Positions 5,901 to 63,570 of a stretch of DNA of 64,000 nt are shown in pieces. Source of the DNA: Tomocerus qinae (taxonomy: Eukaryota > Arthropoda > Collembola > Entomobryomorpha > Tomoceridae); contig CM034549.1 in assembly GCA_020055645.1 (NCBI GenBank), positions 18,993,930 to 19,057,929 on the forward strand. The letters are read 5' to 3'. Below the pieces are notes generated by a model that was not told where the DNA came from, made no database searches, and saw only the letters and a program-made list of their open reading frames with translations. How positions within the stretch are numbered: the stretch's first letter is position 1; each line of letters starts with the position of its first letter. Position numbers and translations under genes: made by a program.

Positions 5901-8900
5901 TCATCAGGGAAGAAAAGAAAGGTACAATATTTTTCCTGCCGTTTTTACTTTGTACTACTCCAATGTAGCGAATTGAAAACCTGTATTTGCGAATTTTTAT
6001 CGTCGCCTGTTAAAGCAAGAGTGAATGAATCACTGACCTTGACATCTTACGTAGACTTGTCTCGTCATTATTAAGCATATGCATAAAGGAATTGTTTTGA
6101 GCAATATTAGTGCACGCAATTGTATCTGATTATTTGATACTGATTAATTATCGGGTCGAAATCTATTGTATGATGCATAAATACTACGTGTAAAAGTAGT
6201 CAATTAAAACTTCGTAGTAGAACCAGATATAATATATGCAAATGGAAGATACAGAGTAAATGAATGATGTTAAACGTTACTCTGCCGCACAGGAATACTA
6301 TTAGATCTATTCTTCAGACTAACTTAAAATCGCATAGTAATAGTAATAACAGGATTTGTATTTTAGGTCATTGTCAGTTTTAACAACTCTCCTGTAATGT
6401 AAATTATTGAGCAATGCATTTAGCAGTGGTCAAAGACAACTCCTTATTACTCACCCTTTTGCGTATTTGACTTTAAGTATTACTACTAACTACGCAGAGA
6501 CAAAGATTCCATAAAAATAAGATATTAATGATGAATGATGATTCACATGCTAATGCGACGTCAATTAGACAAATAAATGTAATTTTAATAAATAATATTG
6601 ATTAAAATTTGCAGATGTAATAAAATATTTGTCAGGCAAACAATAAATTATTGGACGATTTTTCATAGGAAAAGTAGCTTGAAATTCATTTGACATTCCC
6701 AAATTAAAACCAAAAATAATCATAGCTTGAGATTCTGAAAGCATTATAATCTTTAGTATCATTGAAATGATTTTATTCTAAACATATGTACTAAGTACTA
6801 GTAGCTTGGAAAGCAATTCCAAAATTTTATCCTTGTTGTCTTTGGTGGGTGTTCTGGAACTCCATTCAAACCAATCAATCAACAAAAAGACTGCAAAAAA
6901 TCAGCCAATGCATCAACATCAAGCTGCTGTTTAGATGCCTTAGCTATTTTCTGTGATGACTTTTCCTTAATATGTAGCCTTTAGGCTTTAGGGGATTTCT
7001 GTTGTAGTTTTCTCAAGTATTTCCGTCTATACAAAAAACTTTAGTACCCTAATCTACGTCATATTCACTGGTTAGTAGTACCTAGAAAAAGATCCAACAG
7101 AATCTGATACTTTGATATAGTATTGACGCATTTTATTTTGAAGATAGGAATAGACTTGAGTAGATTGTTTGCATGGATCATTAAGTGATTTTTATCACAA
7201 TTTTACATAGAAATCTTCCTTAGGAAACATCTACCTCAACAGAGTACAGAGAACTAAATAGTCTAGACAATATTAAAATAGTAGAGGTAAGTACAAGTTG
7301 ATGTTCGTTAACTTATCAAAATCACCTTGACTTTTTGTGTCTATTCAGCATATGGATAATAGAACTACCTGTATGTGTGTATCCAATATTGTCATAAGCC
7401 AACTCACGAACTATTGTGTGTGATATTTATTATCTATACCTATGTAGATTGATATGGCTTTATTTATTAGTTGTTTAGGTACATTGCAAAAAGTTATGTT
7501 TGTTATTTTAATTTTAACTACACGTTGGAATACATTGATCTGGAACAAGTTGGGCTTCCATAAAAATGTTTCATTGACCTTGACTAAATAATTTCGAAGT
7601 GAGTGTGGTAGATCTTTATTCACGTATCCCACTATACTAATCGGTTCCTGTCCAGAGAGTAATTATCACCTTTGTTTTTCTTCCATATATGGAGTCTTTC
7701 ATGATATTGTGGTTCCTGGTGTTTAAAATATTTCATGGCTATTTACGCAGGAAAAATCCTCTTTTAAATTCCGGTTCACAGAACTATACTAAGGTGATAT
7801 TATGGAAGTAAAATCCCGATCCGACAAATCCTATTACTTGTTTGGAAAACTAAACCACACCAGTTGTGTGAACCAACAATTGCAACCTGTTCTGCTTCCG
7901 TGTATATTATACAGGTACTCCAGTAATACCTATAATCTAAATACCTGCTTATACATATCTGAACTTCAAAAGTGAAAAACAGTAATTAAACATATCCTAT
8001 GGGGTAGTGTGGTAGTAGTTGTGGTATGTCAATACTACTACTACTATGTTTCAAACCAAGTATTAAATTAAGAATACCTATTAAAGGTATTTCTTCGTTT
8101 TCTTCCTCCATTCTGCTGTTTCTTTGTCCACATTTCTACATAAAGGAATAGATTTAATAACAAAGAAAATATCTTACTTTGATAGCGTTCCATGATGCAA
8201 AAACTTTGGTCACACTGTTTTATTAGCTTTGTATCTGGAATGTATTTAATAAATTGAAAAGGTACACAGTAGGATATGAATTATAGCACCTCTGTATTTC
8301 TTCGCACGTTTCTTCACACACACATCGATAAATGATTCTCACGTTTTGCTAAAATCTCCAGTGCTAATTCAATATAGATACTATCGTTTTTTCCCAAAAA
8401 ATATACTTTGTGCGAAAAAGTGGTGGAAAATTTTTTAAGTACTCCCATTTACCAATTAAATTCACTCAGGCACGTGGATACACCTTATTTTCCCAGAAAT
8501 GCAATGTACTTATATTATTTCTTGTAACAATCCTTTGTGTTCTTTGTGAGACTAGCTCAACGTATTTATCACAGTCACAAGCAACTTACAATTAAATAAA
8601 GTGACCACTTCCAATTTTGTTCTCTCCATTGGTTTGTTGGTTTGATTGCCTTCCTATCAGTTCAGGCGTGAAAATAAATCACAGGTGAAACTAGGAAATA
8701 CTAAGCTAAGCAATGTTTGTTTGTACATGTACTTGGCATTTTAATATAAACGGTGTCTGTCAGTTCCTCTGATGAATCATGTACTAAGTATCTGTTGAAG
8801 TTTGAACACCTTGTTTCCTCTACGTAAATAAATAGAGACATCTGAGTCTCATTATTTTACTGGAGAAAAAACACGCGCAAAACTCCCGGGTCGAGGAATT

Positions 8901-8909
8901 GCGTAGAAT

Positions 8910-9003
8910 ATGGATCATTCCAATTCAGAGCAACCAAAATCGACTTTCCATTTTGACCAGGTTCAATGGGCTCAGATGTTTACGAGGCATAAATTCATGC
9001 AAG
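8910..9003 (+). CDS. Possible first coding exon, unidentified
   Basis: An ATG preceded by a locally GC-rich leader (8870-8909) opens 31 codons plus one base and runs into the donor GTGGGT after ATGCAAG. The peptide begins MDHSNSEQPKSTFHFDQ and continues VQWAQMFTRHKFMQ, with Trp, Gln, His and Met and no homopolymer runs. That is unusual in this AT-rich region. Beyond the donor the frame stays open to 9219, but the composition degrades to AT-driven residues. I do not recognise the family and could not place a second exon before the palindromic element at 13556. Confidence 0.28.
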
Positions 9004-12000
9004 GTGGGTCTTCCTTGCGTTTAGGAAATGTGTGGGTGGAGAATAGCGTGGCTCCTTGTGTCCACAAAAAGCCCAATTGCTTTTTAATAGTTATTTTACG
9101 ACCGCGTGGAATTCTGCATCAATTTTTACTTTCTTTACTTGATGCCTCTATTGCATTACCCTATCTCAAAATCTTAATGCATGCCAAAATATCTATATCT
9201 ATAATATTTCAATTTAGGTAAAATATAATTGTAAACATTTTGTACATGTAATGCTGTATAATAACTATATATATACGCTCTTTATTTGTTATTTACTAGT
9301 TATTTATTTACTTGTGCTTGTGCTATATGATACCTTTACAATACATCATATTTACTTATACGATCAATATTTATGATTTGCTAATGTAACAATACACAGA
9401 GTGATCTTATCATACTCATAAGCCTGCTATTGAAATTGCGTGATTAAATTCTAAAAAGATATTTTGTACATATCATACTAAGCCATAATAGTAATATCGT
9501 TATTTACCATATCATCTAGCATAGATCAAAAATAGATTTTTCTAAATACACATGTAGATAGAAGAGATAAGCATGTTTTAATGCAGTGACTAACGCACCT
9601 CAACAAAGATTGTTATACCTATACATAATGTTAATTCATCTACTTCTCACATTGTATGTATGAATCGTAGATTGCCCAAACATTTGTATTCATATCTTAG
9701 GTATACTTATTTTAGCATTTAATATTCCAAACCTAAGTTAAATATTTTACAAGTTACAAAATGTCAGTAGATATTAATTGGTAATTAGGTACTATACTTA
9801 CAGTTAATAAGGTAAAGGTTACTTATTCATTGCAAATAAGTCGTCCGAATCATTGCCAAGCATAAAAATAACTATTTACTACGTTACTACCACTTTAGTA
9901 GGTAGGTATCTTAATTTAGATCAAGCTATCACACTGCACTGTGAGGAGAGTAGTACAATTTATTTAACTACATCGTCATTTTCTGTCTACAGATACTCTT
10001 ATAGCTCCTCCTAAGGTTAAATTACAAATCTGAAGTATACTGTAAAAATAGTAAATCAATTTTTTTTACAGAAATGTTCTCGATAACATTTTTAAGCCTC
10101 GTAAAAACAAATTCACACCAAATACATGCATTATGCACAGTAAATGGTTGGCATTTAATTTTGATTAGTGTAGGCATGTTTGGGAACAAATTGGACGGGT
10201 ACATGCGGCAGTACATAACAATAAAAATTTAACGAATCTAAAATGAGTCAATGTTAATTACAAATAGCATGACATACGACTTGGTGTATTATGTATTTAT
10301 TTGAAACAAGAAAATTCATGTAAGGAAATAATTATTTGACTACCCATTACACGTTTTGCATAATTAGTTCAATACTGAAATCCTCACCTTGTGATAAATC
10401 TCCAATTACAATTAGGTATTTGCTATACTGTGCTTAGCACAAGAAACAAAGGTAAAAGAGGGGATCGATGTGTGTGTACTAAATGTCCATAATAGGTTAA
10501 AGCCTATATACGTAACACGTATGTACATGATATTTAAGCATATCAAGTAAACATGCATGCACTAGGTCAAGTACATTGGTCACATTTTTCTGCTTAATAA
10601 ATCACCATAAAAGCTTCAAAGTACAAGAATTGAAACGCTTTACAAACTACCAATTCAAGTACAATGAATGTAAGTACTAACTGACCAATGGGATGGATTA
10701 AATTTAGTAAAATGCCTAACAACCAAGCTTCGCTGCTTATGGTAATGGCTCTTATTAACTGAATTGAATTACTTATACACTAAGGAATTGGGAACAACAA
10801 CAAGAGTGCGTTTCCGAAAGGAGATATGGCTCAATGCATACATTTATTTTTACTTGTCGATTTAGTACCTGATTGTAAATCTTCATAAACACGATTACGA
10901 GATTAAGTAGGTAAGCAATTACTTCATGCCAAGAACATAGATCAGATACAAATATTACAATATTATTATTTATTCTATGCCAAATCCGATATTCTATTAC
11001 ATTTTCTGTTTGTCTCAAGTACTAAGTTCAAGATTTAAGCTATATCTCCTACATCCCCTTTTGTATACTATGAATTGAATCTTTTTAAATAAACCATTGT
11101 AATTATTATTAGTAAATCAGTAGTGCATTTCACGTTCAGAAATAACTTATTTTTGTATCACGTTTGGTCAGTGAATTTAATATTATCCTAAAATTTATTC
11201 TTCACCTACTCACTCACACCTTGTAAGTTGTAAAGACTGAGAATTGGCATGCCTGTATCTGTATGTAGTGTGCCTGTAAACGGTGTGCATTTTTGGATCA
11301 TGTATATTGATCAAGATTTGGAGATTTTTGTTAACACGACATTAGATATCCATCATTCGTTGTTCACATGATGAATTACAACCATCACATATTTTATTGC
11401 ACAAACAATCTACACTAATCTGCATAAATGCATGGCGTGCTTAAGCGATTTAAAGGCTTCTGTTTCCGCTGATTGTACAAAATTACGCGCATTCCGCAAA
11501 ATTTTATTGCACAAATATGGAAGTTCCATGAAGTGGTATGGTGTTTGAGATTATCCAGTTCTTCAGATGCAGCATTAGTATTGTTCGATAATGTCATGGG
11601 TTAAGATTAGTCAAAACTCGTTGCTTAACTTTTGCTTTTACATGCGCATTAAGTGATGTTAAGTGTTTTTAAGTACGGAAAACACTACAATTATGACGTT
11701 GAAGTTTTTAGTAAAAGTTCTTACACTTTGAACTATGACTTTCACAAGTGATTTAAAACACTACTTCTACCAACGAAATTACTGATGAGTGATGACAGTG
11801 ATAATATGCAAATATTTGAACCACAAAGCTATAAAAGTAATAAACCCATCAATGCAGGATTTATATTTTATCCCCTATCCGTTTTGCTAAACAATAGAGG
11901 AAAATTAATTCGCGTATGAAAAGCTTCTAATCATATCTCCGTAATGTGATTTAAGCAGAAATTAACAAAGCAGGAACATCAATAAAATTTTTGTGACATT

Positions 12001-13549
12001 TTCCATTTACCATTGTACTTATCACTTGAATTAGGTATTAAATATCCACAATTTAAACGTTTGTGAATGAGAAATGTACATAGAAAGCCAAACTTGCACT
12101 GTTCCGTTTGAGATTATCAGACACTTATGACATGTACAGTACAGAAGCATAAATATACCTCTGAACACTGAGGAAATAATATATAGAAAGTGGGACTTGT
12201 GGTAATGTTTACATTTAGTAACAAAGTATTAGCACGTAGGACTATGTATTGGTGCAATTCAATGCAAGTCGATTTCGTTATCTATATCTTGATGCATTAA
12301 TGTTTTAAGCATGCGATTATCATTCTCTTAAGTGTGTAAAACCTATGAGATCATTCATTCATTACTTACTCGCTTTCAATGTAGGGTCGTGTGCCGATGT
12401 CACATGTCATTTCCTCGTAAATGTCAAAAAACTCATCAGTTCAAAATGATTAACTTGGCACTTGGTAGCAATGAAAGAAGACACGTTTTCAGCAACTACA
12501 CTTTATCAGAGCATGTTATGCCTGGATTTTTATGCAACGGATTTTAATGTTTTATCTTCTTCACTTCAAAACAGGCCTTGCCCTTTTATTAGTACACGCT
12601 TCTGGTATTTGGATGAGTTGTATTAAATGGTTGTACTATAATGACTCTAATTGCAGCATGAAAAGCCACACTAGATTCTGTGTTAAATTAGTTCACTAGA
12701 CGTACAAAATTGCAATTCGCTATACTAGTATAATTTTACTAATAAGATGATTGTCAATTGGTTAATAATATTTAGAATGCTTTGACATTATTTTTAGCAT
12801 TTGCATATACATTCATGGGTGTGTGTTGCCTGTTGCCTGACTGTGTAAGGTAACATTATTTGTGTTTAAAAATTGAGTTTCATGTGTCTGTATTTCTTTC
12901 ACTGAATTTATTATATAATTAATGCGCAGAATGGGTGCACTAGGCAAAATTAACAATTAATTGTGAGTATTTTATCGATACCTTTCTACTGTAGATAATA
13001 TCACAGGTCAGATAAAATTAGTACTCATAATTTAATGTGTATTGTTTAGTTAGGTATGGTCGTCAGTAGTAAGTGCTATGTAAATAGCCCAGATAAATTG
13101 TTAGAGTGTCGAGTGGGGCATAAAGTAGCCTACTATTTACATCTTTATTTAGTACCAATTGTATCTATCTAAATGTTTATTACGTATCTGCGATCATGTA
13201 GACACACAAAAGGTGTACGAGAAAGGATGTGGACTCTTCATTTACATATAAATAGTATGATTGGGTAGTATAGTTAGTTTTATTTAGATCTTTAGTAGAA
13301 GTAGACCAGCTCAACAGCCAAAAAGTAATAAAAGGTAGGATTCTAGGGCAATTTAATCTCCCATGATTATTGTCAATCAACTGTGCTATTTACTTATACA
13401 ACTTACAAAGTCTTGTCCCGTTCGCACTAACTCATTTAGATTGGGCATCCTTTTATGTCATTATCATATTTTATATAACATCAGTACATGATAAAGTAGT
13501 AAGTACCATTTTCATTTATAGGCTATACACTTGCTATCAATCAGTAGGG
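9004..13549. other. AT-rich stretch, no recognisable gene
   Basis: About 4.5 kb of AT-rich DNA up to the target-site repeat of the large palindrome. It has short ORFs only, none resembling a known family. The frame at 12332-12547 has slightly better composition but no homologue that I know. No structured repeat was noticed. Confidence 0.6.
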
Positions 13550-13555
13550 TATGTG
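13550..13555. repeat. Left target-site duplication TATGTG
   Basis: The hexamer TATGTG lies immediately outside the first base of the palindromic element (AGTAGTAAGG...). The same hexamer in direct orientation lies immediately outside the last base of the element, at 24849-24854. Confidence 0.75.
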
Positions 13556-13575
13556 AGTAGTAAGGGGACCAGTAA

Positions 13576-13935
13576 GCCACAACCATGACGCCATCTTGGA
13601 TTCTAAAAGGGCTCGGACAGCCACAACCATAGCCTACGGCACTCATCAAGCACAACCACTAACCTAATCCCTTATGCTCGGATAGTAGTCCTCACCCTCA
13701 CTGTATACTTGGATAGCCACAACCATGACGCAATCTTGGATTCTAAAAACGCTCGAACAGCCACAACCATAGCCTACGGCTCTCATCAAGCACATACACT
13801 AACCTTACTCTCGGATAGTAATTCTCACCCTCACTATGCTTGGATAGCCACAACCATAGCCTACTGCATTCATGATAGTACAGGTACTAACCTAACCTAA
13901 CTCTTTCACTTGGATAGTAGCAACCATACCCAATG
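13576..13935. repeat. Subterminal 140-bp tandem repeat, left arm
   Basis: The motif GCCACAACCATGACGC followed by ATCTTGGATTCTAAAA recurs at 13576 and 13716 (period 140). A truncated third unit begins at 13847. The mirror array is at about 24525-24830 in the right arm. Subterminal repeats of this kind often serve as binding sites for an element's own terminal protein or transposase, but that is inference here. Confidence 0.8.
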
Positions 13936-13977
13936 GAAATTTATTAATACATCATTCACAATTTAATGCTTACATAT

Positions 13978-15005
13978 AATTAACGTGATACAATATAGGT
14001 ATATCAAATTCATATTTTTATATCTATAAGAATAATTACTTAATTACTATAAAACATAATAAATGACAATGCAAATTGGATCTCTTTGAATACTCAATAA
14101 TAATGATGAAGGCCAATGTGTGTAGACATCTCTTGATAATAATATTAATTTTATAATTTTAATTAAATAGATACAAAGTGTACACACATACAGACACGAT
14201 AGTGTAAATGAAGTTATATTAATTAATTATTATTGATTGTCTATTATTGTTTATTAAGTGTAAGACGAGCAACGTGCTCAGGTATAAAACTTTAGTTTGA
14301 TGGTTTGAGAGACCAATGGTCTGGATTATATTTAGTCGGTGGTCAGGCGTTAATTGAAGTCCTTAGCATGCAATAAATTATATTAAATGTTCAAATATTT
14401 TACCAACCGCAACAACAACCGCAACAACCGCACTATCAAGCGCAGAAATTTCATCAAAAACTGTATCAATGTATAATTAACGTGATGCAATATAGGTATA
14501 TCTTAAGATGTATATCATATCTATAGCAGTAATTACTATAAAATATAATAAATGACAATGCAAATTGGATCTCTTTGAATACTCAATGATAATGATGAAG
14601 GGCAATGTGTGCAGACACCCCTTGATAATATTAATTTTATAATTTTAATTAAATAGATAAGTGTACACACATACAGACACGATAGTGTAAACCAGATTAT
14701 ATTAATAAATTATCATTGATTGTCGATTATTGGTTATTAAGTGTGAAGACAAACAACTTATTTTAAAATTTCGCACGGATTTCACTAAGAATAAAGTACT
14801 ACTCAGGTATAAAACTTTTATGTTTGATTCGATAAACCAATGGTGTGGATTATAATTAGTCTGTGGTCAGGCGTTTAAAGTCCTTAGCATGCAGTAAATT
14901 ATATTAAAAGTTCAATTGTTTTACCAACCGCAACAGCAACCGCAACAACCGCACTATCAACCGCAGAAATTTCATCAACAATTGTATCAAATACTGTATC
15001 AACAC
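13978..15005. repeat. Two tandem units of about 0.5 kb, left arm
   Basis: Unit A (about 13978-14475) and unit B (about 14476-15005) both start AATTAACGTGAT[A/G]CAATATAGG and both end in a run of CAACCGCAACAACCGCACTATCAA-like sequence. They share blocks throughout (ATGACAATGCAAATTGGATC; GTACACACATACAGACACG). Unit A of this arm lacks about 40 bp that unit B and the mirrored unit A in the right arm (near 24110-24150) retain. Confidence 0.8.
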
Positions 15006-18000
15006 TATTATTTACAGAATAAACACTTGTTATTTATTGAGGCTATGTGCATTTAGCAAAATAATTTTAAAAGTACACTCGAAAAACAAAGTTTTATATA
15101 CCTGAGACTACATGTGGTTATGTCATGTACACTCCAATGTTTGAATAATCAGAATAGTAGCATTTGACAATTTATTAATACATCAATGAATGTTTAAATG
15201 TATTTTCAAAGTTTGTGTCAGATTATGGGTATATCTCATGCCTATCTAAGAATTGAATGTCAGTAACGATAACATATAATAAACAATAAGCTAAACGATG
15301 TCCCTGTGAGTACTTGTATTTGGTGAACATAAAGGTGTGTAGGACAAAAACATTGTAAATATCTGTGTATGACTATACATGTGAGGGTAAGGGTATGCAA
15401 TGAAGAGATATGGAAAAGGGGTTAAACACAATGGTATGTAGTGGACAAGAAGGTACCTGTAAAGATGCATTACAACATTGTACAGACATACACATTTCAA
15501 TACTTTAAAATATCCAGGCAATGGAAATAAGTTATTTCCCTAAACTGGAATACGTTTGAAACAAAAGAGTTGCTATGACCTTTAGTCAAAAAATCCTTTC
15601 TCAGAAAGGATTTACATAAAAGCTTTTTCTTGTAAGTTTCTTTCAACTTACGCATATATTTTAATTCTACGAAGGTCTTTACTAAGAATATTGTCATTAT
15701 TAGCCGTGTGTGATAATAATTCATAGTCTGAGGTAGTAATACAAGTGCAGGTTACAAATTAAACTCGCATGATTGTACAGAAAGCTGTAAGTCTATTCTT
15801 TGCTAATTATAAAGATATGTCTCATACATTAGCTTAATTCTTGTACTTAAATAGGAATTATCATACCAAAATGTGAAAATTTTTCCTAATATGTTGCAAC
15901 TTTATTACTGAATACTCGGAAACTTGTAAAAACAGTCGACAGACATGGATAGGCACACATTTACATAATCTTTCAAAAATACTAGACCAACCTCACTAAC
16001 CGCACAACTAACCGCAGCAATAGCGTCAGCAAACGAAGTCAAGACCCCGAAAACTACAACAGAAAGTCTTAAAAAATCTATGTATAATATTTCACCAGGT
16101 TTATTGTCAAATAGTACTGATTCTGAGTCTATATTTTGTTCTTTAACACATATTAAAACTTACAATCAATAACGCTAATATGGAAGGGACTAACCGTATA
16201 AGTATCTGTATAGGTGAAGGTTATGAGCTATGCTCTAAGGGCAAGTACCTTAAATTATTCTTCAAGCAATAACAATACAATACAAAATGTTATTTTCAAT
16301 ACAATAATGGGATAATCCTTCGTGGCGTTCAGAAGAAGCAAGGTAATCCTTTTCCAAAAATACGTTTACATGTATGTTCTTACTTATATACTTTATTTAT
16401 ATTATCGAATGAAGCGGTGTACTATGATGTGTAAAATGTTACACTTAAATAGGGGTAGTTTCATCACATTACAACTAAGTTATCATTAAAATCTAGTTTC
16501 AAAAGTAATGTTGGGCATATTTTCAAATTATTCCCATTATTGCGACTTATATCTTCGATATATTAGACGTAATCGAACAAATGAATTGCTTGGGATTAGA
16601 TTATATGTAACTGAGGTAAAATATGAGAAACCAAGTCTATATATTGTTTCTAACGATTTTGCAGCAGTTATTCAAAAGTTAGAATTATTTCAAGTGTATC
16701 TTGAGAAAGTTTATTCTCAATCATTTCGTAGATATTCTGCGGATCGCAATCTCGAAAAATGTCCTATGACTCTGATGGAGCAAAGGTTTCTATATCATCT
16801 TTGTGTCCAGAGTATTGTGATTATAGATTGACTTTAAAAAGAGTAATGTTGCCTGCATATACATTACAGACTACAAATGTGTGAAAACTGTCCAACTCTA
16901 AGGAAGATAATTGTATTGTGCAAATTGTACACAAATTACACAATTTTTTTTTAAAATTAATCCAATAACATGTACCAAATAAAAGTACTTCATTTGTAAA
17001 ATGCGGTTATTACTAAGCCGAGTTTATTTGTACTAAGCCAGAATTCTACTGTTGTCATAGAAGAAAAGCAGGTGACATATAAAAATTTTATATGTTCATA
17101 TTAAAGTAAATACTTTTAAAGCTTATCGCCGATTTTGTTAATTAATTTTCCTAGTTAATAAGCCTAACATAACCTATTAACACAAGTAAGTTTAATTTAA
17201 AAATATAAAACACTCAAATGAATGGTCAAATGTGAGTTAGTGTAATTTATTGTCCGTTTTTGTGCTGATTATAATATAATATGCCGAATTGCAATTAAAT
17301 ATAGTCTGGTATCGAATAAAAATATAAGTTTTAAATTGATTGTATAATTATGAAAGTTTTAAGTAATAGTATTTTATTTTTTAAATATAAATGAATTACT
17401 TTTATTTACAAAAAATACTCTAAAAACAAGAACAGTTTTAGAACTGCTGAAGACATGGTCCGTCTAAAACCTGGTATTTTAATAGTAGAAGTCTAATTAA
17501 CAAAACTAAATCAAAATAATTGTCGGTTTAGCATTTTGAAAATTGTATTAGAAATCCCTCAAGTGACATACTTTTTTTCACGTACTCAAATCAAACCAAC
17601 AAGAGGACATTTCATTCCAATGCAAGTGACAGCTTGCTAAACCGACAATTATTATCAATACGTAGTAAAAAAGTTGTAGACATAATAATATTACTTACTT
17701 GATGGAAACAGAATGTTTATGATGACTGTCAAAAGTACGAAAACGATTTCTTTGATGTCTGGTTATAAGTCAAATGATGTAAGTTTAGACAATATAATGA
17801 ACAAAAACGATTAGGGTACTTTGCTGTTATTATTGAATTTGCTTGTATTAAGCCAAAGTAGTATTGTTGTCGCAGCAGAAAAACAGCTGATATTTATAAT
17901 AACACAGGAGAAAACACAGGAGAATAACACAGGTACAAAGAAAAGAGCGAAAGGAGCTAGTTGAACTGCGGTTAAAAACGATATAGTTTTTAATTATTTC

Positions 18001-18729
18001 GTGGATGCAATGTCCAGACTATTTTTTGAATGCTCAAGCATTTAACTGATTGAGAGTAGAAAAAGGCTATAAATGGCTCAGATGTAAAAAGATATTCTCC
18101 TGATGGGATTGTTACTCTAGCATTTGGTCATAAAACATAAAATTGTATGAAGAAAACTTCAAAAGAATTGATTTTGTATAATATCAATGTTGATGTAAAA
18201 ACTTTGATGCCCGCCAATTTGCTGCATATTTTATTGATTGTTTTACTAGTTATGTAACATAACCTAATGTAACCTAATTTAGGTTAATTTAAATGCTGAA
18301 AAATGAAAATGAATTAACAATGTAAGCTAAAGTAATCCATCGTTCTCTAATGTAATTTAATGCATTGAAATTGTATTCTGAATATAAATTATGATGGTGA
18401 ATGAAAATTAATTTAAAATTTTTCTACATAAATCTGTTTCGTGTGCATATATTTATTTTAAACTAAGAAAAAATTACTTTCATTTACAAATAAAAGATTC
18501 TGAAGCGCTAAAACAGTTTGCAAAATTGTACAAATAATCAAGCTGCTAAGAACAGAAAAACTGCGGTTTTCAAACTATCAACATTATTAGGCACATAAAT
18601 ATCCACTTAAAGCCATTGACTCAGTGTTATCTTAGTTAAATTTTGCATAAATAACGTAATAAATCATTCATATCATGCATAAATTTTGGGAAATTAAAAT
18701 AAAAGTCACACTTTTACATATACACACGG

Positions 18730-18905
18730 ACCGCAGTATCAACCGCAGTAACCGCAGTATCAACCGCAGTAACCGCAGTATCAACCGCAGTAACCGCAGT
18801 ATCAACCGCACTTACCGCAGTATCAACCGCACTAACCGCAGTATCAACCGCACTAACCGCAGTATCAACCGCAATAACAATCGCGTCAACCGCACTATTA
18901 ACCGC
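18730..18905. repeat. CCGCAGTATCAA-type minisatellite, left arm
   Basis: Alternating CCGCAGTATCAA and CCGCAGTAA or CCGCACTAA words repeat about seven times, then decay into CCGCAATAACAATCG. It translates in two frames to Ser-Ile-Asn-Arg or Ala-Val-Asp-Thr repeats, which explains the repetitive ORFs here. Related CCGCAACAACCGCACTATC words also occur at the ends of the 0.5-kb units (14410-14450 and 14930-14970) and near 15995. Confidence 0.85.
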
Positions 18906-19194
18906 AATGTTATTATTCATTATTTCACAATCTTAATATATATTTCACGTATGTATCTCACCAATCATTTACGTAAAAATTATTGATGGAATGATCTTTA
19001 TGGAAAGATTATCCTATCAACAAACTGATTCAATAGGTCAGGTTCGTAATTTCTAACGTAAAACCTTAATAACGTAATTCCTAAGGTGCGACTTCACTTA
19101 TACATACTGTAGTATTATTGGTGAGACTTCACTCACGCAGTATCATACATACATAACCTATTAATCATATTAAATCTTAGAATATATTTAAGTC

Positions 19195-19318
19195 TGCCGG
19201 GACTAACTGTTGACGTAGTTGGACTAGAGAGCTAACAGAAAATGTCGGAGAAGTTTCTCCGAAATTTTCTGTGTCTCTAAGCTCTCTTGGTCCTCTGTCT
19301 CAACAGTTAGTCCCAACA
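19195..19318. repeat. Palindrome centre (stem with 2-base loop)
   Basis: GGGACTAACTGTTGA on the left pairs with TCAACAGTTAGTCCC on the right. Inside these, CTAACAGAAAAT pairs imperfectly with AAATTTTCTGTG, and the innermost CGGAGAA pairs with TTCTCCG around GT. The two arms therefore meet with essentially no spacer. Confidence 0.85.
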
Positions 19319-19594
19319 TTTATTTTAAATATATTCTAAGATTTAATATGATTAATAGGTTATGTATGATACTGCGTGAGTGAAGTCTCACCAATAATAC
19401 TACAGTATGTATAAGTGAAGTCCTGCATTAGGAATTACGTTATTAGGTTTTACGTTAGAAATTACGAGCCTGACTTGAATCAGTTTGTTGATAGGATAAT
19501 CTTTCAATAAGATCATTCCATCAGTAATTTTTACGTAAATATTGTTGAGATACATACGTGAAATATATATTAAGATTGTGAAATAATGAATAAT

Positions 19595-19755
19595 AACATT
19601 GCGGTTAATAGTGCGGTTGTGATTATTGCAGTTGATTGCAGTGCGATAACGGTTATATGCGGTTGATACTGCGGCCAAGTGCGGTTGATACTGCGGTTTA
19701 CTGCGGTTGATACTGCGGTTACTGCAGTCTGCAGTTACTGCAGTTGATACTGCGG
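19595..19755. repeat. CCGCAGTATCAA-type minisatellite, right arm (inverted)
   Basis: This is the reverse-complement counterpart of the array at 18730-18905 (TTGATACTGCGG words), shorter and more degraded. It sits about 340 bp beyond the palindrome centre, as expected from mirror symmetry. Confidence 0.8.
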
Positions 19756-22700
19756 TCCCATGTAGTATGTAAAAGTGTGACTTTTATTTTAATTTCCCAA
19801 AATTATGCATGATATGAATGATTTATTACGTTATTTATACAAAATTTAACTAAGATAACACTGAGTCAATGGCTTTAAGTGGATTTATATGTGCTAATAA
19901 TGTTGATAGTTTGAAAACCGCAGTTTCTGTTTAGCAGCTTGATTATTTGTACAATTTTGCAAACTATTTTAAGCGCTTCAAATCTTTTATTTGTAAATGA
20001 AAGTAATTTTTCTTAGTTTTAAAATAAATATATGCACACGAAACAGATTTATATGTAGAAAAAATTTTAAATTAATTTTCATTCACCATCATAATTTATA
20101 TTCAGAATACCAATTTCAATGCATTAAATTACATTGAGAACGATGAATTACTAACTTACATTGTTGAATTCATTTTCATTTTTCAGCATTTAAATTAACC
20201 TAAAATTAGATTACATTAGGTTATGTTACATAACTAATAAACAATCAATAAAATGCAGCAAATATCAAGTTTTTACATCAACATTGATATTATACAAAAT
20301 CAATTCTTTTGAAGTTTTCTTCATACAATTTTATGTTTTATGACCAAATGCTAGATAACCTTTAATCCCATCAGGAAGAATATCTTTTTACATCTGAAAC
20401 CATTTATAGCCTTTTTCTACTCTCAATCAGTTAAATGTTTGAACATTCAAAAAATAGTCTGGACACATTGATCCACGAAATAATTAAAAACTATATCGTT
20501 TTTAACCGCAGTTCAACTAGCTCGCTCTTTCTTTGTACCTGTGTTATTCTCCTTGTGTTTTCTCCTGTGTTATTATAAATATCAGCTGTTTTCTGCTGCG
20601 ACAACAATACTACTTTGGCTAATACAAGCAAATTCAATAATAACAGCAAAGTACCTAATCATTTTTGTTCATTATATTGTCTAAACTTACATCATTTGAC
20701 TTATAACCAGACATCAAAGAAATCGTTTTCATACTTTTGACGACAGTCATCATAAACATTCTGTTTCCATCAAGTAAGTAATATTATTATGTCTACAACT
20801 TTTTACTACGTATTGATAATAATTGTCGGTTTAAAAGTTTACTGCATTGGAATGAAATGTCCTCTTGTTGGTTTGATTTGAGTACGTGAAAAAAAGTATG
20901 TCACTTGAGATTTCTAATACAATTTTCAAAATGCTAAACCGGCAATTATTTTGATTTAATTTTTGTTAATTAGACTTCTATTAAAATACCAGGTTTTAGA
21001 CGGACCGTAGCATTCTAAAACTGTTCTTGTTTTTAGAGTATTTTTGTAAATAAAAGTAATTCATTTATATTTAAAAAATAAAATACTATTACTTAAAACT
21101 TTCATAATTATACAATCAATTTAAAACTTATATTTTATTCGATACCGAAACTATATTTAATTGCAATTCGGCATATTATATTATAATCAGCACAAAAACG
21201 GACAAATAAATTACACTAACTCACATTTGACCATTCATTTGAGTGTTTATATTTTTAAATTAAACTTACTTGTGTTAATAGGTTATGTTAGGCTTATTAA
21301 CTAGGAAAATTAATTAACAAAATCGGCGATAAGCTTTAAAAGTATTTACTTAATATGAACATATAAAATTTTTATGTCACCTGCTTTTCTCTATGACAAC
21401 AGTAGAATTCTGGCTTAGTACAAATAAACTCGGCTTAGTAATAACCGCATTTTAAAATGGTACTTTTATTTGGTACATGTTATTGGATTAATTTTAAAAG
21501 AATTATTGTAATTTGTGTACAATTGCACAATACAATTATCTTCCTTAGAGTTGGACAGTTTTCACGCATTTGTAGTCTGTAATGTATATGCAGGCAACGT
21601 ATTACTCTTTTAAAGTCAATCTATAATCACAATACTCTGGACACAAAATGATATAGAAACCTTTGCTCCATCAGAGTCATAGGACATTTTTCGGATTGCG
21701 ATCCGCAGAATATCTACGAAATGATTGAAGAATAAACTTTCTCAAGATACACTTGAAATAATTCTAACTTTGAATAACTGCAAAATCGTTAGAAACAATA
21801 TATAGACTGGTTTCTCATATTTTACCTCAGTTACATATAATCTAATCCCAAAGCAATTCATTTGTTCGATCCCGTAATATATCGAAGATATAAGTCGCAA
21901 TAGTTGGAATAATTTGAAAATATACTTAACATTACTTGAAACTAGATTTTAATGATAACTTAGTTGTAATGTGATGAAACTACCCCTATTTAAGTGTAAC
22001 ATTTACACATCATATTTTCATCATTCGATAATATAAATAAAGTATATAAGTAAGAACATACATGTAAACGTATTTTTTGGAAAGGATTACCTTGCTTCTT
22101 CTGAACGCCACGAAGGATTATCCCATTATTGTATTGAAAATAACATTTTGTATGTGTATTGTTATTTATTGCTTGAAGAATAATTTAAGGTACGCATAAA
22201 ACATAGCTCATAACCTACTACAGATATATACGGTTAGTCCCTTCCATATTAGCGTTATTGTGTAAGTTTTAATATGTGTTAAAGAACAAATATAGACTCA
22301 GAATCAGTACTATTTGACAATAAACCTGGTAGTGAAATATTATACATAGATTTTTAAGACTTTCTGTTGTAATTTTCGAAGTCTTGACTCGTTTGCTGAC
22401 ATATTGCTGCGATTAGTGTGCGGTTGAGGTTGGTCTAATATTTTGAAAGATTATGTAAATGTGTGCTATCCATGTCTGTCGACTGTTTTTACAAGTTTCC
22501 AGTATTCAGTAATAAGTTGCAACATATTAGGAAAATTTTCGCATTTTGTATGATAATTCCTATTTAAGTACAAAAATTAAGCTAATGTATGAGACATATC
22601 TTTATAATTAGCAAAGAATAGACTTCTCTGTACAATCATGCGAGTTTAATTTGTAACTTACCACATATATTACTACCTCAGACTATGAATTATTATCACA

Positions 22701-24848
22701 CACGGCTAATAATGACAATATTCTTAGTAAGACCTTCGTAGAATTAAAATATAAGGTGCGTAAGTTGAAAGAAACTACAGAAAAAGCTTTATGTAAATCC
22801 TTTCTGAAGAGGATTTTTTGACTAAAGGTCATAGCAACTCTTTTGTTTCAAACGTATTCAGTTTAGGAAATAACTATTTCCATTGCCTGGATATTTTAAA
22901 GTATTGAAATGTGTATGTCTGTACAATGTTATGTCCATCTTTACAGGTACCTTCTTGTCACTACATACCATTGTGTTTAACCCCTTTTCCATATCTCTTC
23001 ATTGCATACCCTTACCTCACATGTATAGTCATACACGAGATATTTACAATGTTTTGTCCTACACACCTTTATGTTCACCAAATACAAGTACTCACAGAGG
23101 ACATCGTTTAGCTTATTGTTTATTATATGTTATCGTTACTGACATTCAATTCTTAGATAGGCATGAGATGATATAATCTGACACAACTGAAAATACATTT
23201 AAACATTCATTGATGTGATTAATAAATTGTCAAATGCTACTATTCTGATTATTCAAACATTGGAGTGTACATGACATAACACATGTAGTCTCAGGTATAT
23301 AAAACTTTGTTTTCGAGTGTACTTTTAAAATTATTTTGCTAAATACATAGCCTCAATAAATAACAAGTGTTTTATTCTGTAAATAATAGTGTTGATACAG
23401 TATTTGATACAATTGTTGATGAAATTTCTGCGGTTGATAGTGCGGTTGATTTGCCGGTATGTTGCGGTTAATAAAACAATTGAACTTTAATATAATTTAC
23501 TGCATGCTAGGACTTTTAAACGCCTGATACAGACTAATTATAATCCACACCGATTGGTTTATCGAAATCAAACATAAAAGTTTTATACCTGAGTGAGTAC
23601 TTTATTCTTAGTGAAATCCGTGCGAAATTTTAAAATAAGTTGTTTGTCTTCACACTTAATAACCAATAATCGACAATCAATGATTAATTTATTAATATAA
23701 TCTAGTTTACACTATCGTGTCTGTATGTGTGTACACTTATCTATTTAATTAAAAATTATAAAATTAATATTATCAGGGAGTGTCTGCACATTGCCCTTCA
23801 TCATTATCATTGAGTATTCAAAGAGTCAATTTGCATTGTCATTTATTATATTTTATAGTAATTACTGCTATAGATATGATATATATCTTAAGATATACCT
23901 ATATTGCATCACATTAATTATACATTGATACAGTTTTTGATGAAATTTCTGCGGTTGATAGTGCGGTTGTTGCGTGTTATTGCGGTATTAAAATATTTGA
24001 ACATTTAATATAATTTATTGCATGCTAAGGACTTCAATTAACGACCACCGACTAAATATAATCCAGAACCATGTCTCTCAAACCATCAAACTAAAGTTTT
24101 ATACCTGTACTATATTCTTAGCAAAATCACTTGCGAAATTTCAAAATAAATTGTTTGTCTTACACTTAATAACCAATAATTGACAATCAATAATAATTAA
24201 TTAATATAACTTAGTTTACACTATCGTGATATGTATGTGTGTACACTTTGTATCTATTTAATTAAAATTATAAAATTAATATTATTATCAAGAGATGTCT
24301 GCAAACAATGGCCTTCATCATTATCATTGAGTATTCAAAGAGATCCAATTTGTTGTCATTTATTATGTTTTATAGTAATTAAGTAATTATTCTTATAGAT
24401 ATAAATATATGAATTTGATATACTATATTATATCACGTTAATTATATGTAAGCATTAAATTAATGAATATTATGTAATAAAATTTCCATTGGTATGGTTG
24501 CACTATCAAGTGAAAGATTAGGTTAGGTTAGTATACCTTATCATGAATGCAGTAGGCTATGGTTGTGGCTATCCAAGCATAGTGAGGGTGAGAATTACTA
24601 TCCGAGAGTAAGGTTAGTGTATGTGCTTGATGAGAGCCGTAAATATGGTTGTGGCTATCGATTTTAGAATCAAGATTGCGTCATGGTTGTGGCTATCCAA
24701 GTATACGATGGTGGACTACTATCCGAGCATAAGGGATTAGGTTAGTGGTTGTGCTTGATGAGTGCCGTAGGCTATGGTTGTGGCTGTCCGAGCCCTTTTA
24801 GAATCCAAGATGGCGTCATGGTTGTGGCTTACTGGTCCCCTTACTACT

Positions 24849-24854
24849 TATGTG
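24849..24854. repeat. Right target-site duplication TATGTG
   Basis: This is the direct copy of the hexamer at 13550-13555, directly after the last base of the element (...CCTTACTACT). Confidence 0.75.
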
Positions 24855-26058
24855 TATACTAGTTATCATGCACAGAAAACAAACAAAACATTATGTGTGC
24901 ACTTACTAAATGAAAATGAGAGAATAGACGAATATTATTAATGTTTTATTAGAAATGAAAGGGCATCTGGTTTCTAGTTCACGTTCAATATGCCATTGAC
25001 TGACTTCAGTGTGCTACTAGCCCCTCGACACGGCAAAACAACAAAAGATTGCACAAACCAACCTAACCAAATGACTCTTACTCGGTCACCTTGGATTGAT
25101 TGAAGCTTTTTCTGCTTTATTTTATCAATATTAAGTACTATTAACTATGTTCACTTTGTTCACTAAGCTCTAAATGCACACGCGGTGCAAAGTGCAAATT
25201 CTCATTTACTGTGGGTGGACTTCTTTTTATGCACATTATGGACATTCTTCAATCACATTCTCTAGTGGCCAAGTTAATATGATGATTAAAAGTAAAATAC
25301 ACAAAATAAAAAACTTTACATTTTAAAGCAATTGCAAGGTCCAAAGGATGAATGTTTTCTTCAATTATTGTACACTATATGATTATCATTAAAACTCATA
25401 AAATATATATCAAAACTATCAAACGCCCAGCGCAGAGCATAGGTGAGTAAGTCTAATAACTACTTCATACTTCTGAACTTGTAGTTAGGTACTCGTCACA
25501 GAGGGATGAAAACTTCTTTTATCTGAAATCTTGCCATTGCCACAAAAGATTTTTGCCAAGTTTTAGAAGCATTAAATCAAGTTTGCCTTCGCTTTTTTGC
25601 CTCTGTGTGCTTAGAGTATTATATTTAAGACACCAGAATACAAGAAACGAGCAATGAACATTACTTTCCATAATATTTATAAAACCGTTGTAAATGAATT
25701 CTCGCTTAGAATTAATCTTAGTTACTAATAAGACAAATTTTTGAAGACTGAATTTTGTGGATAATTTAAACAATCAATCGTAGGTGTATGGATATTTTTA
25801 TTCAATGTTGTTGCCCCGCCTTAAACTGTTGAATTGGATTTAAGTTGTGATTTCCATGAGTTGGTTGGGTGTATGCCATTAACGAACATAAACACACAGA
25901 TGTAAAAGTGAAATACAAATTCAATTTATTGAAGTTAATTATTATTATGAACAAAGAATACACCCATAAGTAATTGCATAATGACAAACAATTATTAAAG
26001 GTTAATCAAATGTTATCACTTCATATATTAAATACAGCTTTTATGCAAAAATTTACAT
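24855..26058. other. Intergenic, downstream of PSMD14
   Basis: AT-rich sequence between the palindromic element and the PSMD14 stop codon, including the PSMD14 3' untranslated region. Short ORFs (25519-25773 and 25802-25987, minus strand) show no known domain. No structured repeat was seen. Confidence 0.6.
25925..25930 (-). terminator. Candidate poly(A) signal of PSMD14
   Basis: AATAAA on the minus strand about 130 nt beyond the PSMD14 stop codon. It is a candidate by position and sequence only. Confidence 0.45.
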
Positions 26059-29049: not shown

Positions 29050-32000
29050 TCACTTGTCGGAATCTTTAGAAGATTCTTGAATTGGAAACAGCTTAGGATA
29101 CAAATATCCCAATCGTTCTACATTATTAAGAATAGTTAGTCGGAGCTTTTCTGTATACATTGAATCAACTTTGAGGAACTCCGGACCTCGGACATATTTC
29201 TTGGTCATAGAGTCTTTTATAAAAACAGTCGGTACAGGCACATTAACTTTCATGTACGCCCATATGTCCTTTAACAACAAAACTACTTCATTAGCCTTTA
29301 ATTCATGAACAACTTGCCCAATATAGCTCAAAGGTGGAGGTATTAATTGGCCTATTTTCATAATATTCACTAAACGCACTGTCCACTCAAGTTGAGTTGG
29401 AGATGTCTTGGATTTCGCTTCCTGAAAATATATTTAATCCACAAATAAAATAGGTTACTTTCATTAAATAATTTTCTGCTATGTACCACAATGCCTATAT
29501 TTTACTGTTATTATTTAGTGTACCTGATTAGAAGTCCAATACGCCATAAGGGTAGCCATCAAAGCTCTGAGTAAAACTGAACAGTAGCATAATGATGGAC
29601 AATAATTACCAACTAACTCCAAGAGTGACCACAAGTAAGGATGATCTTCAAAAGCTCGTTTAATCTGCAAGTCACGTTCCACTTGGACCTATATCACACA
29701 GACATAATGGAATTAAAATTATGTCATATTACGCAGTTCAATCGTAAATGTATGCCCATGCTTTGTAAATTACTCAAACCTTTGAAAACTCCTCTTCTGG
29801 CCAAGGAAGTCCATTAAACATTACATCTGGAGAAACAATTTCTACTAATAACAACGCGACTTTCCTCATTGCCTCTACAGATACTACTCGATTTTCTCCA
29901 TCGATAATACCTGGCTTTGGGGGGAAAGGGGGAGGCATGCATCCAGGATTGGCCATACACACATTTAGTAAAACGCTGAGAAATAGTTTAAGATTAAGAC
30001 TCGCATCTTTGTTTTCCCTAATTTCAACTTTGGGAGTAACATTCCAATTTTTCAATCCATTTTTTGCAAGTTTTCCAGAATGGAAGCTGGTGGAGTGGAC
30101 TCTTGAGAGGCTAATACTTGATGTTCTTCGTCGATTTTCTTTTAGTAATGGCACATACATAGAAAACCGTTCCGGTTGAAATTCGTCATCATCATTCATA
30201 AAGCCCGTATTAAAACCACATCTTGCAGATTTAGATGTTACTACTCGATCCTGAAACAGCTGTCTACATTCAGGATTTAGACACGATTGCACCAAACTTC
30301 GTAATGCATCATTTTGTACAGCTTGATCATCAGATAACTTGTATAACAACTTTGCGATGAGACTTATTGTTTTCACTTTGTCATCTGATTTTTTCTTGTT
30401 TACAGACAAAACTTTGAACATGAATTCTACTAAATATCTTTCAATGGTTAGTAAAGTTCCAAAACGAACTTTCATCGTCAAATTCTGTATTTTTGAAAGA
30501 ATTTCCACAATTATACTAGCCTCCTCAATGCAAAAGTTCATCTTACGAACATCCAAAAACGGTGTTAAAATTATCAAATTTTCTTGGAGAACTGTGGTGA
30601 TTTTTCTCCGGATAGGGTACAAATTATCAGTTTCACTATCAATCAGTCGCAGCACATTTTTCCATTGGTGTATTGTAACCCGAGTATCCGAAGTTTGAGA
30701 CTCCAGTATTTTTGATTTTTCATGTATATTTGACTTAACGGCCAGTATTTGTAAGCTGTCTGCAAGTACATCGGGATACTTCATCTCCAAACTTCCAATT
30801 GTGTCCGTTAAATTCCATAAATGTTCATCTTTCTCCGAAACACGAAAATACCAACATATCGCTTGAACGCCAATTGCAGAGCCGTCATAAAATGATAGCA
30901 ACTTTGTAAACTGCATGGCAACTTTACTAACTTGACTGTCCGAATCAGTGAGAAATGGGATAATAATATCAACATTTTCTTTCAAGGCCGATATGCAGGG
31001 AAAATTTTTCGATAAATCTTTTCTAGTGCAATCTGATTCGTACAGTAAGCTTGACAGTTCGGCAGTAAACTGGTCTGAAATTATGAAATTGAAATTACTT
31101 AATATTATTTTTAATTACAGCTTTGTATGGACACAAATAATGAGCGAGGAAAACTGCTTATGAAATGATTAATTATTAATCACCAAGTAAATTCCTGGCG
31201 TTTGAATTGATGGGATGAGGCCATGTTTTACAGCCTTTCATTAAAATCTCCAATGCAGTTGGTCCCCGATTACTCTTCAGAATTAAATGCATTATCAAAG
31301 CTGCAAATGCCGGTTCGTGACCTCCAAAGTGAAGCTTCACCCATTGAGGAATAAGCACGCGAAGTTTTTGCAAAGTATCTTCTTTTACTGAAACGTCAAA
31401 AGAAGTTGCAACATTATTAACCTAACGTGTGTCATCTACAACATTCGTTTCATTGAATTTCATCATAACCTCTTGGCAAACAGCTATCCATCAAAACATC
31501 TAGCAATGGAACAGATGAAGAGCATAATTGGAGTAAATAAGGCACTGCAAACTGTTCGATCATAGCATTGCTTTCCGTCGTGCCATTCTAAAAGTGCACA
31601 ATTAATGTAACAATTAAAAAACCAACGTAATATAAGCTTAGTATCTACACAAAAGTAAGTTAACATATTACTTAAACTAGTATGTATAAATTCAATTCAA
31701 ATTGATGTATGTACGGACTAATAAAAGTATTTCAAGTACTCACTTGAAGCATTTGGTCAAATGCATGTTGGACTTCTTTAGAATGTGTAGTAGCTAAATA
31801 TCCAAGTACAGAGCTAACAGAGCTTAATTTTGTGGCTTGGGGTGGATTGCTAGAAAAGTTTTGCAATCCTAGACCCAACACTTCTGTGACAACTGTTTGA
31901 GGATATGAGTTACCCACATGAGCTACAACCCAATCAAAGTGCGGACTGTGATTTGCACTGGTATCTGCATAACATAATTTACAGTTCCAGAGTAAGATTT

Positions 32001-62209: not shown

Positions 62210-63096
62210 CTAAAACAATCAACAAATACCAATTCAATTTTTAATTCGTAATGTCTGTTTACACACCTTCGTAACATTCATATCCGTAGTTATTTCCTAA
62301 ATCGTTGGGCAAAGGGCAAATCTCTGGTCATAAGTTTTACCTGGCCATATAATTACGTCAATTGTGAATCAAGTACAATGTACAGATCAATGACAGTGGC
62401 AATAGTATCAAATACGATTTTGCCAAATCAATGTTGCAATTTACAATCATTATCTTCAAGCCACTCACATATGGATCCATATTTCATGAATAATTAATTA
62501 AGAAATTCAGATACCGTATTTCCCAATATTATATTATAGTACATATTGAAAGAAGTTGTCAATATAATCAATTTGCAGGTTGGTGGCTTTCTAAAAGTGG
62601 TTTACCAGCTTAAGATTCATCATATATTGAAAGTTCGCTACTGACTGGCCTATAGGAAATTTGTTGGGTCATGATTTAGGTACCTAAATGTGTAAAACTT
62701 TCCCAGTTCCAAGTATCTTTATCAATCTCAATTATAGGCGACAATACAGATAGTAGAGACGAAAATATTCCTAGTAGATGTGTAGACTTTCACAAAGTAG
62801 ATTCTAAAAATAAGTTGATATGTGTGTGTTCATTATACATGCTAGCTGAAATGATGCGAATGGAAAAAATAATATCTTTGCCTAAGCATTGTTTGTACAG
62901 GGATATGAAGATCTACTTAAAGCCTTCTCCTTGATCTGTTCAATTTATTTCAGGCAACGACTACGCATTACTTCCAGAAATGTTCTGACAGGACAAGTTG
63001 AGGTCAGAATTTCTCGACCAATTTGCACGTGCATTTTTTACAATATTTCATGGAATCACGTCATATTACTTGCACAGCAGTTCTTATCAAATATAA
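62210..63096. other. Upstream of the tetraspanin exon, nothing recognised
   Basis: This is intron sequence of the tetraspanin gene read on the minus strand. I looked for an upstream exon with a CCG motif or membrane helix and saw none. A plus-strand ORF at 62889-63197 runs into the inverted repeat and is not convincing. Confidence 0.5.
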
Positions 63097-63420
63097 TTTA
63101 TCGATTAAATGAATTTATGAAATTCAATCGTAATTTTATGAGTGAGCTTGTCCGAAGTAATTACCTACTTAATGTATACCTACACAATGTATACTGAAGT
63201 GAACACATATGTTTATAGCGCCTAAAACACGCGATCGAACCCCTATATTCCCTGCTTCTTCGTGTCCAGGTAGCCATTACTTCATAATATTTGTGTCTTT
63301 TCTGCATAAAAGTAATTACAGGGTCAAATGTTGCCATTTGGGAGGGTGGGAGGTAATTACTTCGGACAAGCTCACTCATAAAATTACGATTGAATTTCAT
63401 AAATTCATTTAATCGATAAA
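63097..63420. repeat. Perfect 70-bp inverted repeat, 184-bp loop
   Basis: 63097-63166 and 63351-63420 are exact inverted copies (left arm starts TTTATCGATTAAATGAATTT and ends GAAGTAATTACCT). A third, diverged copy in the left-arm orientation lies at about 63425-63468 (TTTCATGAGCTTGTCC..., then TAATTACCTACTTAATGTAT). The arrangement of inverted plus direct copies next to a tyrosine recombinase suggests the non-coding end of that element or a derived non-autonomous copy. Confidence 0.85.
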
Positions 63421-63570
63421 TTTTATTTCATGAGCTTGTCCTCTTTAATTACCTACTTAATGTATGATGTTGAAAGAATGCAGAAAAGAATGCTGAGATT
63501 CATGTAAAGTACAAAAATCAAATGTATTGTACAAAATTAATTGTATAACATAGGATTGCAAAATTTAAGT

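Follow-up and report, generated by a model that had tools for sequence, protein, structure and literature searches.

Polintons (Mavericks) are defined by AG...CT ends bordered by a 6-bp target site duplication (TSD), and the view that they replicate by protein priming is drawn mainly from their gene content. Protein-primed replicons such as adenovirus and the linear plasmids of yeast yield snap-back or inverted-dimer derivatives of one end. A review gives Polintons a typical length of 15-25 kb and a gene set that includes a protein-primed DNA polymerase B (pPolB) and a DDE integrase (PMC6431247), and bidnaviruses are thought to derive their pPolB and terminal repeats from them (PMC4061559). 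Here we describe a palindromic element with Polinton-type ends in a 64,000-nucleotide stretch (hereafter the window; C4:18993930-19057929, where C4 is contig CM034549.1) of the 334-Mb, 115-contig assembly of the springtail Tomocerus qinae (GCA_020055645.1), together with its relatives elsewhere in that assembly. Our reading, to which we give a probability of about 0.65, is that the window element and its kin are transposing palindromic satellites derived from Polintons, the identity of their arms being renewed by snap-back at a central hairpin. Among the titles and abstract openings listed by searches of the open-licence PubMed Central (PMC) literature, we found no description of palindromic Polintons.

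The palindromes have the AG ends, 6-bp TSD and pPolB of Polintons, and the arms of polymerase-bearing members are 93-99% identical in DNA to the pPolB end of standard elements. They differ from Polintons in that one end is mirrored around an added centre module and hairpin, and in that integrase, ATPase and protease-like genes were not found in them by tblastn. Like nonautonomous DNA transposons and satellites, they keep cis-acting ends and presumably use an enzyme supplied in trans; unlike such elements generally, several keep a polymerase without an integrase, and almost their entire length is inverted repeat. Snap-back derivatives are likewise palindromes made from one end of a terminal-protein genome, whereas the palindromes described here are integrated with TSDs and propagate as a family. 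The conserved, imperfect and bulged hairpin at the palindrome centre recalls dimer forms of parvoviruses such as adeno-associated virus or of poxviruses, but the outer ends are those of Polintons and no Rep, NS1 or resolvase was recognized in three open reading frames (ORFs) submitted to an insensitive Pfam scan. Drosophila Foldback/Galileo elements also have long, internally repetitive inverted repeats; their ends and enzyme class differ, pPolB being absent from them, and their full-length relatives are expected to hold a P-superfamily transposase.

A Family of Giant Palindromes

The window palindrome comprises a left arm of 5698 bp (13556-19253, forward strand), the cleaner of the two, and a right arm of 5595 bp (19254-24848, reverse strand), noisy in sequence. 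As a first-pass annotation made from the sequence alone had described, the arms meet without a spacer at 19253/19254, and their matched outer ends, both AGTAGTAAGGGGACC..., directly abut exact copies of TATGTG at 13550-13555 and 24849-24854. The arms are inverted copies with 93% identity (BLAST), differing by 226 substitutions over 5500 aligned bases and by 133 gap events. Inward from its terminus, the left arm holds on the forward strand an internally repeated terminal region beginning AGTAGTAAGGGG (13556-13935), a decayed remnant of the C-terminal part of a Polinton pPolB (17709-18203; tblastn, 44% identity, E 2e-24) and a centre module common to the palindromes (18240-19253) with a 21-bp minisatellite, ACCGCAGTATCAACCGCACTA, inside it (18730-18878). 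An imperfect core hairpin with an asymmetric bulge occupies the exact centre (19226-19287), and all or part of it recurs at 28 genomic loci. The polymerase remnant corresponds to residues 1253-1431 of P0001 and is the sole trace of pPolB in this copy, none being detected in the right arm by tblastn; it corrects the earlier statement that no Polinton gene had been found there.

Further copies of the 13556-13935 terminus, suggested as a check on the first reading, are present in the assembly: at least 49 matches were found, about 32 of them counted in inverted pairs 8-17 kb apart (a lower bound, with 40 of 83 candidates scored). Ten inverted-pair neighbourhoods were examined and comprise eight giant palindromes, two of which have a one-sided centre of 2.1 or 3.7 kb, one full-length Polinton and one single terminus (C7:145500). 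When the window centre was used as the query, 51 matches were obtained, distributed over 28 loci; the 30 matches to a 65-base query from the core fall at these 28 as well. The arm length and these relatives (28 centre loci and 12 palindromes read at both ends) exclude a chance origin for the window palindrome.

A perfect 6-bp TSD borders nine of the 12 palindromes read at both ends: TATGTG in the window copy, and ATGAAT, ATTTTA, ATGCAT, CATTAT, TTTGTT, AAGAAC, TGTTCT and CTTTAT in the others, the left end of the last differing by one base. The Polinton-type ends with their 6-bp duplications show that palindromes integrate as palindromes. The C1:51.63-Mb palindrome provides a view of the target before insertion, as it lies within a repeat of ∼1.1 kb, a few bases from its end. 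A query made by joining its flanks gave 40 scored matches (of 284 candidates), and the 38 non-self matches run through the target; in all five copies examined, this paralogous empty target holds a single ATGAAT, so the element went in as a palindrome and duplicated its target. Positions 16181557-16182674 and 23268173-23269290 of C1 are examples of a high-copy inverted-repeat element of ∼1.1 kb ending TGTGTATGAATTTAAG.

Relationship to Standard Polintons

Full-length relatives in which an arm adjoins Polinton genes had also been proposed as a check, and two standard Polintons were found, with AGTAGTAG-type ends as in the palindromes. Both were read at both ends and both have a 6-bp TSD (TCGAAC and CCTAGG), bearing out the link to Polintons that had been drawn from the AG ends and TSD length of the window element. 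Polinton C1:23252768-23267580 has inverted repeats of 169 bp, to which the first 169 bp of the window terminus are 94% identical. Polinton C4:25596508-25611047 is 14.5 kb long with inverted repeats of ∼258 bp, is flanked by CCTAGG at both sides and encodes pPolB. It also encodes an rve integrase (E 2.2e-7, 31.5 bits, just below the Pfam cut-off of 32.6), a Pox_A32-type ATPase (E 2.8e-5, 24.2 bits, above the cut-off) and a weak match to adenovirus protease (E 0.026), all outside the end that is homologous to the palindromes; no Pfam capsid match above the cut-off was obtained in nine ORFs of this element.

The right 5.5 kb of the C4:25.6-Mb Polinton is 93.6% identical to the arm of the C1:67.6-Mb palindrome, from the terminus to ∼35-40 bp past the pPolB stop codon, and the remainder of the Polinton has no counterpart in that arm. 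In the C1:23.25-Mb Polinton, the match to the same arm ends ∼110 bp before the pPolB stop. The arms of polymerase-bearing palindromes therefore match the pPolB end of standard Polintons and diverge from them near the pPolB stop. These correspondences in ends, TSD length and pPolB side uphold the earlier suggestion of an integrated palindromic derivative of one Polinton end.

Gene content was compared by searching nine ORFs from the other two thirds of the C4:25.6-Mb Polinton against the pieces of eight palindromes and the window element (tblastn, E 0.01). Eight of the nine had no match there, and the ninth matches the palindromes only through the minisatellite of the centre module. As a positive control, the C1:23.25-Mb Polinton was found by six of the nine queries, the ATPase not among them. 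The rve integrase ORF thus finds the other standard Polinton and nothing in the palindromes or window element, while the ATPase and protease-like ORFs are likewise without a match in the palindromes, with the control positive for the protease alone.

A genome profile search placed PF03175 in both arms of six palindromes, with longest frames of 1448, 1446 and 1443 amino acids (aa) in three of them. In the C1:67.6-Mb palindrome, the 1448-aa frame belongs to the left arm and its counterpart in the right arm is broken, the PF03175 match scoring 50 bits. Although the genome search gave this score, an hmmscan of the same pPolB ORF against Pfam missed PF03175, and the assignment rests on the genome profile search together with alignment. 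The invariant columns of a 12-sequence alignment (pPolB with 11 relatives) include positions that we take to be the exonuclease and polymerase motifs. Named relatives come from springtails, a planthopper and a scallop, most matches being unnamed; no sequence in the Protein Data Bank (PDB) matched at E 1. Viral contigs gave no match to single-protein patterns; one distant relative was found on a viral contig, IMGVR_UViG_3300007522_001028, whose 13.8 kb of examined sequence lacks a long inverted repeat. The ratio of nonsynonymous to synonymous substitution rates (dN/dS) in pPolB is 0.05-0.11 in 27 of 28 pairs among eight core-bearing copies, the remaining pair being nearly changeless, which points to purifying selection and a polymerase that has been kept working. 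Part of this selection may have acted in standard elements, given that the palindromic lineages exchange sequence with them, as described below.

Taken together, we read polymerase-bearing members as two inverted pPolB ends joined through a centre module of ∼1 kb with the hairpin at its apex. Members like the window copy appear to have kept the Polinton ends, the centre and a pPolB relic while their middle was replaced or decayed; over most of its middle, the window arm matches only other palindromes.

The opposite, integrase-side end of the Polinton was used as a second query and gave at least 44 matches in 40 loci (a lower bound, with 40 of 47 candidates scored). One inverted pair was found among these loci, at C4:14237070-14241337, where a palindrome of 4.27 kb has arms 98-99% identical, a loop of ∼165 bp and the TSD GTCAAT. 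It is ∼73% identical to the left end of the C4:25.6-Mb Polinton and lacks the core. This is the product expected from a simple snap-back of the opposite end. By eye, the ∼165-bp loop contains a hairpin with an 11-bp stem (piece C4:14235800-14242200).

Arm Identity and Exchange with Standard Polintons

Arms of the same palindrome differ by substitutions at 0.20-0.89% of positions in seven of nine palindromes, by 2.0% in the C9 palindrome and by 4.1% in the window copy. The left arms of different elements are 5-17% apart in their alignable parts, except for the window, C1:51.63-Mb and C9 elements, which are separated by 0.6-3.0%; arms are consequently not clearly nearer to each other than elements are in these three. 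In pPolB DNA, the arms of each of six palindromes differ at 0-6 positions over 697-1610 bases, compared with 61 and 72 mismatches in ∼1490 bases between two pairs of palindromes.

A pPolB tree was built from 26 stretches, eight of them labelled standard, two because they were read at both ends and six because a left-end match lies 9-16 kb from them and no core match is nearby; the palindrome label also covers some one-sided core loci (0.86, 46.49 and 50.64 Mb). Arms are sisters in all six palindromes for which both were included. Palindromic and standard labels interleave, with five changes between them, at least four of which are forced by supported branches.

Two palindromes are mosaics. Up to the pPolB end, windows of the C14 palindrome show 93-99% identity to the C1:23.25-Mb Polinton; beyond that point, C14 has no similarity to this Polinton and is instead 93-96% identical to the centre module of the C1:67.6-Mb palindrome. 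Toward the terminus, it matches the latter palindrome at just 53-79%, and in the pPolB region at 64-96%. Similarly, the C1:48.02-Mb palindrome has a pPolB stretch 3/1490 bases from the C4:25.6-Mb Polinton, while its terminus side matches that Polinton at just 75%, from base 603. These mosaics show that palindromes retain their centre and exchange pPolB ends with standard Polintons.

A Proposed Snap-Back Model

The core has the form AGAGAGCT-A-ACAGAAAATGTCGGAGAAGTTTCTCCGAAATTTTCTGT-GTCTCACA-AGCTCTCT, an imperfect hairpin of 63 bp with bulges of unequal size on its two sides, and at 23 of the 28 loci its full length is present, albeit with some substitutions. At 13 of the 28 loci, at least 46 of the 50 positions that lie 60-110 nt beyond the core are paired. 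The same core stands in different flanking sequence at C1:48.62, 129.06 and 136.05 Mb, and the second arm resumes farther out after the core in C10, C7 and C1:0.86, 46.49, 50.64, 51.37 and 140.32 Mb. The centre module has no DNA match at the corresponding place of the two standard Polintons. As the family has a common central hairpin and centre module, most palindromes are not fresh snap-backs.

We propose that a free palindrome would be replicated by protein-primed pPolB, its own or that of a helper, and that a strand extended past the centre would fold back on the hairpin and copy its own arm. Such copying would renew arm identity while leaving the bulge unsymmetrized, and we read the bulge as the part beyond the reach of arm copying. 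The integrase of a full-length Polinton would then insert the product in trans. A snap-back origin of the window palindrome would fit with the separate palindrome that derives from the other end of another Polinton and has a TSD and loop of its own. More tentatively, and with somewhat less than even confidence, we suggest that the family represents a heritable class of self-complementary transposons with a hairpin- and protein-primed cycle, in which the two halves are kept identical by copying, polymerase ends are taken from Polintons, the Polinton integrase is used and the 63-bp hairpin is the element's own cis-acting replication sequence.

If Polinton DNA has a single-stranded stage prone to folding back, integrated palindromes of either end with TSDs are the footprint to be expected. 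The conserved central hairpin is a concrete candidate for a cis element, and arm copying, if true, would allow insertions to be dated by how far their arms have diverged. In addition, the family shows that near-perfect palindromes on the scale of genes persist in an animal genome.

Several observations weigh against this model. Three of the 12 palindromes lack a perfect TSD, so that remodelling within the chromosome may have affected some of them: at C1:140.31 Mb, the flanks match at five of six positions; the C14 palindrome (C14:234300-252100) has no TSD and instead 9 bp of inverted flank; and the C9 palindrome (C9:29800-43200) continues into its own flanks, and would thus stem either from inverted duplication in the chromosome or from fold-back in the assembly. 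In the window copy, the left arm differs from the arm of a different element, the C1:51.63-Mb palindrome, by 0.6-0.9% in the alignable part, less than the 4.1% by which it differs from its own right arm, and the C9 arms, at 2.0%, are hardly nearer to each other than C9 is to its relatives (2.3-3.0%). Copies at different loci, C1:39.7 Mb and C7, have nearly identical pPolB (dS 0.006). The pPolB tree shows weak clustering of the two labels, 28 of 500 shuffles giving a number of changes as low, and the palindromic state is thus inherited in part. An inverted pair was present at just one of the 40 left-end loci, and snap-back is therefore not equally common at both ends. The minisatellite of the centre module has a relative in a standard Polinton, through which the ninth outer ORF of the C4:25.6-Mb element finds the palindromes, and which lies elsewhere in that element; a minisatellite-like ORF of 209 aa is seen there (L060 6735-7361). 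Finally, free DNA forms, protein priming and integration in trans are steps that we infer from genomic sequence, and ongoing gene conversion would likewise yield sister arms.

Alternative Explanations

Gene conversion is the main rival account of arm identity. The arms of Y-chromosome palindromes are kept identical in this way, and a Polinton-ended palindromic transposon with a single or rare origin could have its arms kept alike by conversion on the chromosome instead of by snap-back. Arm identities of 99.1-99.8% in seven of the nine palindromes measured are what such a process would give, and the inverted flank of C14 and the inclusion of flanks in the C9 palindrome also suit it. Three observations make us regard it as rather unlikely. 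First, the C1:48.02-Mb palindrome has no mismatches between its arms over 1453 bases of pPolB that is so close to a standard Polinton (3/1490) that both arms must have gained it very recently. Second, the separate left-end palindrome would need an origin of its own in any case. Third, the core stays asymmetric even where the flanks pair right up to it (30 of 30 positions at loci 3333 and C3_4593).

A further possibility is that a linear element with a hairpin end, similar to those of poxviruses or parvoviruses, forms head-to-head dimers and that the palindromes are such dimers left unresolved; the core would then correspond to the closed hairpin of a half-length monomer with its other end protein primed. 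This would account for a conserved asymmetric bulge and for a core that is near identical where arms differ. It also suits the five cores that are not full length (C1:140.32, 2.79, 128.94, 51.37 and 12.55 Mb), each of which breaks off 12-14 nt after the apex, on one side or the other; three of them run into sequence without a match to the examined loci, as insertions of one arm would. Truncations are equally explicable by cleavage of the hairpin after insertion, and under the snap-back model their breakpoints would be either 3' ends of fold-back strands or products of such later cleavage. No resolvase or nickase was recognized, a result limited to three palindrome ORFs and to a Pfam scan insensitive enough to miss pPolB. 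We consider the dimer explanation improbable.

An origin by sequencing or assembly fold-back is far less probable still and is rejected for the family. It draws on the C9 palindrome continuing into its flanks and on the right arm of the window copy, which is noisy in a manner typical of long-read errors. Taking the C1:51.63-Mb palindrome as a close reference (0.6-0.9% from the window left arm), private substitutions number 221 in the right arm and 20 in the left, and private deleted bases 199 and 46, respectively. The right-arm deletions form 91 events, and 41 of the 51 single-base deletions adjoin the same base; the right-arm substitutions are clumped (87 adjacent vs. 9 expected) and lie near indels (74 within 3 bp vs. 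30 expected). Since the changes are one-sided, clumped and close to indels, we take the right arm to be badly base-called and not old. Nanopore base calls are reported to be less accurate in inverted duplications, with the modelled loss falling after the junction (PMC7229812). An artefact does not explain distinct flanks with exact TSDs at nine of 12 palindromes, a specific centre at 28 loci or the paralogous empty sites, and the family of relatives with perfect TSDs and a common centre bears out the initial view that the window palindrome is an inserted element and not a fold-back.

A Foldback/Galileo-type or other cut-and-paste element unrelated to Polintons, which the long, internally repeated inverted arms and the lack of a long gene in the window copy might suggest, has a negligible probability and is rejected, because relatives encode pPolB, the window copy has its relic, and ends and TSD length are as in full-length Polintons, the two full-length relatives examined being of Polinton type with no P-superfamily transposase.

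Other Features

The left arm of the window palindrome contains a direct duplication of ∼500 bp on the forward strand (13975-14990, comprising 13975-14469 and 14472-14990), and Rfam at gathering thresholds found nothing in window positions 13000-25500. The C14 palindrome has an ORF resembling DUF659/hAT proteins in one arm and its mirror counterpart in the other, as the copying of one arm from the other would produce. In the C1:33.33- and 41.42-Mb palindromes, the arms hold acidic ORFs that are related to each other, 392 and 214 aa long (L017 3224-4399 and L019 4042-4683), and both ORFs are mirrored; the 392-aa ORF has no Pfam match. In the C7:145500-165300 region, a Polinton left end lies near 686, and 8338-10352 holds large ORFs rich in cysteine, 300 and 425 aa long (positions within L015/L016).

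Elsewhere in the window, the gene at 29774-31114 is that for Integrator subunit 5 (INTS5), its best named match being from Orchesella cincta at 57%, which agrees with a springtail host. Positions 1-527 form a GC-rich inverted repeat of 32-bp tandem units, possibly another foldback-like repeat. A 53-bp tandem repeat is present at 37373-37569, and an inverted repeat at 63083-63434 has arms of 78-84 bp that are 96-99% identical.

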